Assembly (NCBI GenBank): GCA_003141855.1
Contig: PLNS01000006.1
Location: 114,565 to 171,397, forward strand
Direction: 5' to 3'
From: Candidatus Bathyarchaeota archaeon
GTDB taxonomy: Archaea > Thermoproteota > Bathyarchaeia > Bathyarchaeales > Bathycorpusculaceae
DNA: 56,833 nucleotides
The number at the start of each line of letters is the position of its first letter. Position 1 is the stretch's first letter. Positions 14,075 through 37,699 of the stretch are shown one piece after another. Under the pieces are notes generated by a model. It searched no databases, was not told where the DNA came from, and saw only the letters and a list, made by a program, of their open reading frames with translations. Made by a program: the position numbers and the translations under genes.

Positions 14075-14175
14075 AGCGGGGTGGGGTAGCCAGGATTAAC
14101 CCGCTGGGCTCATAACGGCGCTTTGCGCTGTGAGATACCCAGAGATCACTAGTTCAAATCTAGTCCCCGCTACCA
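14075..14175 (+). tRNA. initiator tRNA-Met(CAU) with a 22-nt intron
   Basis: Acceptor AGCGGGG (14075-14081) pairs with CCCCGCT before A and an encoded CCA (14173-14175). The T arm is ACTAG-TTCAAAT-CTAGT. The anticodon CAT lies at 14111-14113 in the loop of a CTGGG/CCCAG stem. The A1:U72 pair and the three G:C pairs next to the anticodon loop mark an initiator. Between A37 (14114) and position 38 (14137) lies a 22-nt intron (14115-14136) that folds as CGGCGC-TTT-GCGCTG, the bulge-helix-bulge context of archaeal tRNA introns. Confidence 0.92.
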
Positions 14176-35308: not shown

Positions 35309-35566
35309 CTACCCATGTGACCGCCTTGCTCGGCCAGATGGACCTTTAGTTCCAGTCGTCCTATTTCTGTTTCCTCTGCTTTCTCCGCCTTTCCGCCCAA
35401 TTTCCCTGTAGAATTCTGAGCCACGCTCCTCAGCCACTTTCTCGCCGCCTTTCCGCCCAATTTCCCTGTAAAATTCTGAACCTCTTTCCCGCGCCACCTT
35501 CTCGCCACCTTTCCTGCCCGCCTCCTGCCTAGTCATCTTCCTTCCTGCTTCACTTTTCACCGCCAA
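35309..35566 (-). CDS. KGG-repeat stress protein 6
   Basis: 85 residues from TTG 35566, chosen because GGAGGTGA lies 7 bases upstream as in the other five paralogues; ATG 35584 would lie upstream of that site. It has three KGG-type units: RKGGEKVARERGSEFYREIG, RKGGEKVAEERGSEFYREIG and RKGGESRG. The C-terminus departs from the paralogues' KEHEEE end. In another frame the DNA from about 35400 to 35257 reads LKVHLAEQGGHMGSYAIKGE, so a frameshift near 35390 is possible. KGG proteins are hydrophilic, stress-induced and of unknown mechanism. Confidence 0.75.
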   Translation of the reverse strand: MAVKSEAGRKMTRQEAGRKGGEKVARERGSEFYREIGRKGGEKVAEERGSEFYREIGRKGGESRGNRNRTTGTKGPSGRARRSHG

Positions 35567-35625
35567 AACCATTTCACCTCCCATAACTGAAAAAAACGCC
35601 TTGTTATTCTAGTTCGATAGGATAG

Positions 35626-35645
35626 CTTCTTAAGCATATGTGGGC
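35626..35645 (-). promoter_or_regulatory. KGG-cluster promoter box, copy 3
   Basis: Read on the minus strand it is CCACATATGCTTAAGAAG, fitting the shared pattern CACATANGYTTAWGA seen also at 36903 and 37700. It lies about 60 bases upstream of the TTG at 35566. The TTAAG part could be the TATA box. The remaining 35646-35747 shows nothing else. Confidence 0.5.
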
Positions 35646-35747
35646 TCCAACAAGCAATCACAAACCCATCAGGCATAAGCGCAGTAAACCGCTTGCTACC
35701 CGAGCACTAAAAAAATAAACCTTTGAAAATAAAAGAAGGCTTGTTGC

Positions 35748-36032
35748 TTATTCTATTTTGCCTATTTCTTTAGTTATGTCTATAGGCGAAGTGTAGGTTT
35801 TTTCTGGCAGTTTATTTATCAAGTCCATGACTTCTTCAGGCGCATCCTTGTTTTGGGCATTGTCGACTAGTTTTTTCTTTTCAGCGGGGTAATGCATTCC
35901 AGCCAGATACTTTTCCACTATTGCTGGGCTAACGTGTCCAGACCTTCCGCTTCTATCTGTGTATTGCCTTCTTGTTCCTCTACCTTGGCCGATTCCTCTT
36001 CGCCTATTAATGGATGTTTCTTGTTTACTCGT
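35748..36032 (-). CDS. DUF2795 protein with apparent ACG start
   Basis: 94 residues. The C-terminal ~55 residues match DUF2795: SPAIVEKYLAGMHYPAEKKK, then LVDNAQNKDAPEEVMDLINK and YTSPIDITKEIG. The N-terminus is Arg/Gly-rich. There is no ATG, GTG or TTG in frame between an upstream TGA (part of GGAGGTGA) and a GTG at 35918, which would cut into the domain. An ACG sits at 36032, exactly 6 bases after GGAGGTGA, where the neighbouring KGG genes have TTG. Non-canonical ACG initiation or a base error is possible. It lies within the KGG stress cluster. Confidence 0.75.
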   Translation of the reverse strand, partial: TSKQETSINRRRGIGQGRGTRRQYTDRSGRSGHVSPAIVEKYLAGMHYPAEKKKLVDNAQNKDAPEEVMDLINKLPEKTYTSPIDITKEIGKIE

Positions 36033-36108
36033 TTTCTTTCACCTCCAAACAAAAAAATTTAAAAATAAAATTGAAGAAAAATGAAAACACGAATTACGTT
36101 TAAGGTGT

Positions 36109-36279
36109 TTACTCTTCTTCGTGTTCTTTTCCTTCCTGAATAAGCTTGCGGACTTTTTGACCGCCTTTGTGGCCTATTTCGCTGTAGAATTCTTCTCCGT
36201 GGGTTTCAGCGGTTTTTTCACCGCCCATTCTTCCAGCTTCTTCAACGGTCATCTTTCCCTTCTTTTTCTCATTAGCCAA
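36109..36279 (-). CDS. KGG-repeat stress protein 5
   Basis: 56 residues from TTG 36279, 6 bases after GGAGGTGA. MTVEEAGRMGGEKTAETHGE, EEFYSEIGHKGGQKVRKLIQ and the acidic end EGKEHEEE follow the cluster's pattern. It has two KGG-like units (RMGGEK, HKGGQK). It is followed by the DUF2795 gene 76 bases downstream. Confidence 0.85.
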   Translation of the reverse strand: MANEKKKGKMTVEEAGRMGGEKTAETHGEEFYSEIGHKGGQKVRKLIQEGKEHEEE

Positions 36280-36339
36280 ATATATTCACCTCCTTAAACC
36301 AACCACTTGCCAAAAATTTTCGATGTTGAAGAAACTGAG

Positions 36340-36522
36340 TTATTCTTCCTCGTGTTCTTTTCCTTCCTCGATGAGCCTTCGTACTTTTTGCCCACCTTTA
36401 TGACCTATTTCTTCATAGAATTCGCGACCATGAGTTTCAGCAGTTCTTCGCCCACCTTTTTGACCGCCCAATCGTCCTGCCTCTTCAACACTCATTTGGC
36501 CTTTTCTTCTTTCTTCAGCCAA
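36340..36522 (-). CDS. KGG-repeat stress protein 4
   Basis: 60 residues from TTG 36522, 6 bases after GGAGGTGA; the ATG three bases earlier is an alternative. Units are RLGGQKGGRRTAETHGREFY and EEIGHKGGQKVRRLIEEGKE, ending in HEEE. It is very hydrophilic with no hydrophobic core, so likely disordered or folding only on binding. It lies between paralogues 3 and 5. Confidence 0.85.
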   Translation of the reverse strand: MAEERRKGQMSVEEAGRLGGQKGGRRTAETHGREFYEEIGHKGGQKVRRLIEEGKEHEEE

Positions 36523-36586
36523 CATGATTCACCTCCTGTTTTAAAAATCGATTCAATGATGGATAATTTTTAAAAAATGTAGAAGT

Positions 36587-36838
36587 TTATTCTTCCTCGT
36601 GTTCTTTTCCTTCCTCGATTAATTTCCTGACTCTTTGGCCACCGCGGTGACCTGCTTCTTCTAAGCTTGTTTTGCCTTTGGCTTCAGTTGACCCCTCATG
36701 CTGCTTAGCTCGCTGGGAGCCTCCTTTGCTGCCTATTTCACTGTAGAATTCGGGACCGTGAGTCTCAGCGGTTTTGGAGCCGCCCATTCTTCCAGCTTCT
36801 TCAACAGTCATCTTACCTTTCTTTTTGTCTATACTCAA
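36587..36838 (-). CDS. KGG-repeat stress protein 3
   Basis: 83 residues from TTG 36838, 6 bases after GGAGGTGA; an ATG at 36844 lies too close to that site. It has three units: RMGGSKTAETHGPEFYSEIG, SKGGSQRAKQHEGSTEAKGK and HRGGQRVRKLIEEGKEHEEE. The middle unit resembles that of paralogue 1, suggesting duplication. A promoter-like box lies 65 bases upstream at 36903. Confidence 0.85.
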   Translation of the reverse strand: MSIDKKKGKMTVEEAGRMGGSKTAETHGPEFYSEIGSKGGSQRAKQHEGSTEAKGKTSLEEAGHRGGQRVRKLIEEGKEHEEE

Positions 36839-36902
36839 AAACATTCACCTCCAAAAAAAAGTTAAACGGTTGCTTTTTCTTCAATTCCTAGCTTGAAACA
36901 TA

Positions 36903-36920
36903 CTTCATAAACGTATGTGG
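36903..36920 (-). promoter_or_regulatory. KGG-cluster promoter box, copy 2
   Basis: Minus-strand CCACATACGTTTATGAAG, matching the shared CACATANGYTTAWGA pattern. It lies about 65 bases upstream of the TTG of paralogue 3, consistent with TATA plus leader. The 36921-37046 stretch beyond it has no gene. Confidence 0.5.
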
Positions 36921-37046
36921 CTGTTCGTCCACAGCAACACAGAAAAAACCTTTTTGCGAGCAAAAAATAGCGTCAAAAAATAAAAACAGAAATTTTAGAG
37001 GTACGAGTAGTGAATGAAAAAAGGACAAAATAAAGTTAAGGTGGAA

Positions 37047-37235
37047 TTACTCTTCTTCGTGCTCCTTTCCTTCCTGAATAAGCTTACGGACTCGTTGTCC
37101 GCCTCTTTGTCCACCTATTTTTCCGCCTTTACGGCCTATTTCGCTGTAGAATTCTTCTCCATGAGTCTCAGAAGTCTTAAGGCCACCTCTCCTACCTGCC
37201 TCTTCAACTGTCATTTTGCCTTTCTTTTCTTCCAA
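37047..37235 (-). CDS. KGG-repeat stress protein 2
   Basis: 62 residues from TTG 37235, 5 bases after GGAGGTGA; in-frame ATGs at 37253 and 37250 lie upstream of that site. Units are RRGGLKTSETHGEEFYSEIG and RKGGKIGGQRGGQRVRKLIQ, ending EGKEHEEE. The KGGKIGGQRGGQ stretch is a local triplication of the GG module. It follows paralogue 1 on the same strand after 90 bases with T-rich runs that may terminate or attenuate transcription. Confidence 0.85.
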   Translation of the reverse strand: MEEKKGKMTVEEAGRRGGLKTSETHGEEFYSEIGRKGGKIGGQRGGQRVRKLIQEGKEHEEE

Positions 37236-37325
37236 AAAAATCACCTCCATCAAAAAATAAATTAAAACCTAAGGAACGGAGAAAAAAATAAGCTAAAACA
37301 CAAAAAATGTTCCAATTGAGGTTGC

Positions 37326-37643
37326 TTATTCGTCCTCATGCTCCTTTCCTGCTTGTATTAGTCGTCGGACTCTTTGCCCGCCTCTGTGGCCGGCTTCTTC
37401 AAGACTTGTTTTGCCCTCTGCTTCTGCTGAACCTTCATGTTGCTTGGCGCGTTCGGAGCCTCCTTTGCTGCCTATTTCACTGTAGAATTCTGGACCGCGT
37501 TCCATTGAGACTTTTTCTCCGCCTTTGCGTCCTATTTCTTCGTAGAATTCTCGTCCATGAGTTGAAGCGGTTTTTTCTCCGCCTTTCCTGCCTGCTTCAG
37601 CAACGGTCATTTTGCCTTTTCGTTCTTCAGTTCGTGTACTCAA
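37326..37643 (-). CDS. KGG-repeat stress protein 1
   Basis: 105 residues from TTG 37643, 5 bases after GGAGGTGA. It is the longest member with four units: RKGGEKTASTHGREFYEEIG, RKGGEKVSMERGPEFYSEIG, SKGGSERAKQHEGSAEAEGK and HRGGQRVRRLIQAGKEHEDE. Similar KGG (con-10/GsiB-like) proteins in bacteria rise under starvation or general stress; their molecular role is unknown. It is the first gene of the cluster, with a promoter-like box at 37700. Confidence 0.86.
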   Translation of the reverse strand: MSTRTEERKGKMTVAEAGRKGGEKTASTHGREFYEEIGRKGGEKVSMERGPEFYSEIGSKGGSERAKQHEGSAEAEGKTSLEEAGHRGGQRVRRLIQAGKEHEDE

Positions 37644-37699
37644 AAAATTCACCTCCTACTAAACTACGGAAAAGTTAACATAGATAGAGCCGAATAACC

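Follow-up and report, generated by a model that had tools for sequence, protein, structure and literature searches.

A DUF2795 gene in a member of the Bathyarchaeia starts with ACG. This start, which an earlier note on the same DNA had proposed, is confirmed as an observation: it is supported by 17 orthologues, an in-frame stop two codons upstream, coding constraint upstream from the first canonical codon (GTG 35918) and the occurrence of ACG and CTG starts elsewhere. The ACG is very probably a genuine start codon that evolution has maintained. We observe its position, its conservation, the limits of the coding sequence and the enrichment of ACG behind Shine-Dalgarno (SD) sequences; decoding by initiator Met-tRNA (Met-tRNAi), a lower yield and regulation by aIF1 are inferred.

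Results

An ACG codon behind an extended SD sequence

The host genome (G000) is a MAG of the Ca. Bathycorpusculum group of the Bathyarchaeia, 2.39-Mb in 30 contigs. The window, that is, the whole stretch of DNA that was analyzed, is 56,833 nucleotides long and corresponds to G000:C8:114565-171397. Positions given without a contig are window positions. ACG is a very rare start codon. The start region contains the following features:

35748..36032, minus strand: DUF2795 gene, 94 codons plus stop, ACG start; based on the open frame, a PF11387 match and 17 aligned orthologues
36030..36032, minus strand: ACG start codon; ACG in 14 and ATG in 3 of the 17 orthologues, 8-10 nt after GGAGG
36039..36046, minus strand: SD sequence GGAGGTGA, read from the sequence; contains the TGA that is the in-frame stop bounding the ORF upstream
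35916..35918, minus strand: GTG, the first in-frame canonical codon; rejected as start, being poorly conserved and with coding constraint extending upstream

The earlier note had held that ACG stands at the expected distance behind a perfect SD sequence and that the frame has no ATG, GTG or TTG ahead of the domain. Both points agree with the sequence. The minus strand reads TTT GGAGGTGA AAGAAA ACG AGT AAA CAA, with the SD at 36046-36039 and a spacing of 9 nt from GGAGG to ACG. The frame runs TGA (36041-36039)-AAG-AAA-ACG, and this TGA sits inside the SD sequence. Because the in-frame TGA precedes it, initiation cannot lie upstream from the ACG. Further into the frame, no ATG, GTG or TTG is met before GTG 35918, which is already within the DUF2795 domain. 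The gene thus meets our criterion for a non-canonical start: the start is other than ATG, GTG or TTG, and the leader region offers no canonical alternative.

Membership in the family is established by the PF11387 profile (59.9 bits versus a cut-off of 25, residues 35-86 of 94). The predicted fold has a disordered N-terminus followed by four helices (mean pLDDT 72.6). We found no meaningful PDB match by fold or by sequence, so no function can be derived from structure; to our knowledge, DUF2795 has no known function.

The ACG start is conserved in the genus

We searched 32 genomes of the genus with PF11387 and obtained 17 orthologues with a readable start. The start codon was ACG in 14 of them, ATG in three (G028, G025, G023) and never GTG or TTG. 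All 17 carried GGAGGTG upstream, which meets the criterion for a strong or extended SD, and the end of GGAGG was always 8-10 nt away from the start codon. In several orthologues, an in-frame stop (TAG or TAA) lies one or two codons ahead of the ACG. ACG and ATG replaced one another in three separate changes on the tree, also when only well-supported branches were counted. In the rest of these ORFs, only 12 of 114 Thr codons are ACG; a codon that merely encoded Thr would therefore not have remained ACG. A separate group of DUF2795 paralogues in the genus starts with TTG.

The alignment of orthologues from related genomes that the earlier note had asked for shows ACG at a fixed place after GGAGG in 14 of 17 cases. 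The note had also stated that ATG, TTG or GTG in relatives would refute the proposal. ATG is indeed found in three of 17, GTG and TTG in none. On the tree, the three ATG codons are independent replacements of a mainly ACG start, and they confirm its position rather than refute it.

The KGG neighbors keep TTG

The gene belongs to a cluster on the minus strand:

35309..37652, minus strand: six KGG genes and the DUF2795 gene; all with GGAGGTG; KGG start TTG (one ATG or TTG), DUF2795 start ACG
36109..36279, minus strand: upstream KGG gene (PF10685); GGAGGTGA followed by TTG; no overlap with the DUF2795 start

KGG genes were assigned by the motif PF10685, four of the six by sequence motif only. The KGG neighbors had been said to have TTG at exactly the place of the ACG, and this holds: behind GGAGGTG, TTG stands at a spacing identical or close to that of the ACG. 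Over the available loci, KGG start codons were TTG in 72 cases and ATG in six (some loci counted twice). A gap of 77 nt separates the upstream KGG gene (36109) from the DUF2795 start (36032). We also note that six genes with the KGG stress motif in a row (window 35309-37652, minus strand), each with its own GGAGGTG, form the strongest SD set seen in the genome.

hflX starts with ACG across the order

The ACG start is not an oddity of one gene; it recurs in several genes of the genome and of the order. One such case is hflX, the gene of a ribosome-splitting GTPase:

G000:C8:94572-95840, plus strand: hflX, ACG start, overlapping the 3' end of aMBF1; its relatives are loci L178-L237

The protein of the ACG-start gene meets the equivalog cut-off of TIGR03156 (HflX; 294 bits versus 216.75). 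In the genus, the start was ACG in 29 of 30 loci and ATT in the remaining one. In other genomes of the order, 25 of 30 loci had ACG, three ACA, one GCA and one GTG; each of the four loci with ACA or GCA has ATA or CTG one codon earlier. ATG and TTG were absent from the start position in all 60 loci. With ACG in 54 of 60 hflX loci and 14 of 17 DUF2795 orthologues, the criterion of conservation across species is met. In many hflX loci an in-frame stop immediately precedes the ACG, and pN/pS is 0.20 right after the ACG versus 1.07 upstream in the same frame. When we searched 398 genomes of the phylum, the ACG start of hflX was found only within the order; the four matches outside were at the chance level set by a backward-pattern control.

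The gene upstream from hflX is aMBF1 (TIGR00270), which usually runs 10-38 nt past the hflX start. Within this overlap, NTG followed by A at the hflX start would give TGA in the aMBF1 frame, and NTG may be avoided in part for this reason. In eight hflX loci with ACG, however, aMBF1 does not run past the hflX start (TAACG or earlier), and five further loci in which aMBF1 ends in this way start with ATA, ATT or CTG. Both genes of the aMBF1-hflX pair are linked to the ribosome, and the non-canonical start is conserved across the order.

ACG and CTG starts in other genes

The start of a SudB-like gene (PRK06222), at one common place behind GGAGG, is ACG in ten genomes from five genera, ATG in seven and GTG in one; a control for this ACG pattern gave no matches. 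The gene for ribosomal protein eS17 has CTG in 15 genomes of the genus, TTG in four, GTG in one and ATG in one:

G000:C8:230788-230549, minus strand: eS17, CTG start, stop codon immediately before

Position 1 of the NCBIfam profile is in register with the residue encoded by ACG or CTG for PRK06222, PRK08667 (hydrogenase membrane subunit), TIGR00286 (PvlArgDC) and PRK01151 (eS17). In addition, the two PvlArgDC copies of G000 have ACG and ATG, respectively, at the same start place. All these genes serve as the independent checks of ACG and CTG as starts.

We scanned the complete G000 assembly for ORFs that have 110 codons or more and lack a canonical start led by an SD, requiring an SD match of at least 5 nt and a spacing of 6-11 nt. 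Of all codons, ACG showed the strongest enrichment at this spacing (10 seen versus 2.5 expected, Poisson P 2.5e-4) and CTG came second (six versus 2.6). The P value precedes correction for ~60 codons and is modest afterwards. Neither four other spacings nor two scrambled SDs gave an ACG excess in G000, and a version of the scan with a 4-nt SD found 22 ACG versus 10.3 expected. In raw codon counts behind GGAGG, ACG did not stand out; it did so only when ORFs were limited to those without an SD-led canonical start, and loose genome scans without homology or spacing control are noisy. The case for ACG starts is carried by the comparative evidence and not by the enrichment P value.

Is the ACG the true start?

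Could the gene begin at GTG 35918, the first canonical codon in the frame, with the ACG and its SD accidental or part of a non-coding leader? In the 17 orthologues, this column holds GTG in four, other Val codons in nine and Ile or Leu in four, and two orthologues lack any canonical codon up to and including the domain start. Starting there would cut into the Pfam domain and leave the SD 116 nt away, and purifying selection acts on the 24 codons ahead of this GTG (pN/pS 0.26 versus 0.20 in the domain). We regard this start as extremely improbable. Since codons 2-10 evolve fast (pN/pS 0.75), it is not protein conservation but the SD and the codon pattern that identify the exact first residue. 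A sequencing or assembly error that hides an ATG (a T as the true base) or a TTG is likewise rejected, and is less probable still. All genomes used are draft assemblies, mostly MAGs, the host genome included, and ATG and ACG are one transition apart, but the ACG is found in genomes of 14 species, where an error could not repeat itself, and recurs in hflX and the SudB-like gene. We also considered C-to-U editing that would convert the ACG to AUG in the mRNA ahead of translation, as at the plastid starts ndhD, psbL and rpl2, where a genomic ACG is edited to AUG (PMC9845219). As at those sites, ACG alternates with ATG between species at one position, both in DUF2795 and in the SudB-like gene, and the CTG/TTG alternation of eS17 is likewise a C/T difference. 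Against editing, hflX has ATA, ATT or CTG in five lineages without ACG. ATA and ATT cannot be converted to AUG by a C-to-U change, and the plastid-type expectation that all replacements be explainable in this way is therefore not met. Moreover, the SD is the only motif that the sites have in common upstream, and we are not aware of comparable C-to-U editing of archaeal mRNA. We consider editing very unlikely, and initiation at the ACG itself remains our reading.

Two further candidates were rejected. An upstream start or a frameshift from the GTG inside the SD is excluded: the spacer is 8, 9 or 10 nt, so the frame is not conserved, and in-frame stops precede the ACG. A Thr-tRNA(CGU) acting as initiator was also discarded. 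The sole tRNA-Thr(CGU) has G as its first base and hardly differs from tRNA-Thr(UGU), which makes it look like an elongator; the initiator tRNA-Met of G000 carries an A1-U72 end. The initiator tRNA-Met gene (window 14075-14175, plus strand) has a 22-nt intron after the anticodon, and ARAGORN run without introns reports it as an undetermined tRNA.

Discussion

How the ACG might be used

In the mechanism that we propose, the extended SD GGAGGTGA would position the small ribosomal subunit on the ACG. Initiator Met-tRNA (anticodon CAU) would accept this codon in the P site, pairing at codon positions 1 and 3, and the protein would begin Met-Ser (ACG AGT) or Met-Asn. The imperfect pairing of ACG should make initiation less efficient than at the TTG codons of the KGG genes, whose SD is the same, and should increase its dependence on fidelity factors (aIF1). 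In this way, the choice of start codon would set a low, tunable dose of DUF2795. The same mode of starting recurs in hflX, the SudB-like gene, PvlArgDC and the hydrogenase membrane subunit, with CTG in the case of eS17. In S. solfataricus, aIF1 favors discrimination against non-canonical starts (as cited in PMC6237735).

The earlier note had suggested that the ACG could cut yield on purpose. This remains an inference without any measurement of yield or peptide or RNA data, and we put its chances at roughly even. Dose setting fits the pattern because one and the same SD is combined with TTG in the KGG genes and with ACG in DUF2795, each kept across species, and infC and sigR provide experimental precedents. 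It is also possible, though we are inclined to doubt it, that the machinery simply tolerates near-cognate codons and that ACG starts persist by drift, mutation bias or overlap constraint without setting expression. CTG, ATA and ATT starts would agree with this, including CTG in ribosomal protein genes that need high expression, as would the hflX starts in the aMBF1 overlap, where NTG plus A would create a stop. However, DUF2795 is free of overlap and yet has ACG in 14 of 17 orthologues and never GTG or TTG, whereas its KGG neighbors keep TTG (72 TTG, 6 ATG). Similarly, 12 hflX loci have non-NTG starts although aMBF1 ends at or before the start; one CTG is the exception.

Tentatively, dose setting by ACG might extend beyond DUF2795. 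ACG, together with CTG, could be a regular additional start in the order and define a start-codon regulon (hflX by aMBF1, DUF2795 and others) whose output would go up when aIF1 fidelity drops under stress. If it exists, such a regulon might do in archaea, and for many genes at once, what the IF3/infC/sigR logic does in bacteria.

Comparison with known systems

infC starts with AUU or AUC and is autoregulated by IF3. It resembles our cases as a deeply conserved non-NTG start in a translation-related gene, and hflX is comparable at the level of the order. Unlike IF3, HflX has no known role in start-codon fidelity, and the comparison does not imply direct autoregulation. The sigR gene of Streptomyces combines a AGGAGGTG site with a GTC start that is kept in 32 of 34 species and repressed by IF3, and a canonical codon breaks this control (PMC5472188). 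DUF2795 shares with sigR an extended ribosome-binding site, a genus-conserved non-canonical start, a link to stress and the fact that annotation programs miss it. On the contrary, sigR is a single bacterial gene with GTC and IF3, while here several archaeal genes have ACG and the factor, by inference, would be aIF1. Conserved ACG initiation is also known from the plant GGP uORF, where the weakness of the start is of consequence and changing ACG to AUG alters output (PMC11066809). That case involves eukaryotic scanning and a regulatory uORF, whereas DUF2795 is a main coding gene behind an SD.

A review of archaeal initiation gives AUG, GUG and UUG as the only starts and does not mention ACG (PMC7531240); its scheme of SD-led initiation with Met-tRNAi, aIF2 and aIF1 is otherwise like the one proposed here. 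Our literature search found no paper that treats archaeal ACG starts or the start codons that Bathyarchaeia use. The literature searched takes archaeal starts to be AUG, GUG and UUG only. Gene finders are built accordingly, and those that accept only ATG, GTG and TTG miss ACG starts. The conserved ACG of DUF2795, the order-wide ACG of hflX and the recurring ACG and CTG starts imply that the annotation of this large and abundant group of archaea has misplaced starts or has lost genes. In addition, these genes form a natural set in which two questions can be tested: how an archaeal initiation apparatus, eukaryote-like in type, takes near-cognate codons when there is no scanning, and whether doses in stress clusters depend on weak starts.

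Further apparent non-canonical starts

Three more genes of G000 were seen in passing. An 804-codon ORF (G000:C10:1295-3709, plus strand) looks FtsZ/tubulin-like in its N-terminal part and has an apparent ACG start; it has no NCBIfam match. The gene for uS11 (G000:C13:30333, minus strand) has an apparent CTG start that shares bases with the stop codon ahead of it (CTGA), and a stretch of 44 codons contains no canonical one. Finally, a putative signal-peptide protein (G000:C6:31335-31664, plus strand) has a hydrophobic leader that runs from an ACG behind GAGGTGA, the next canonical codon being 57 codons away.
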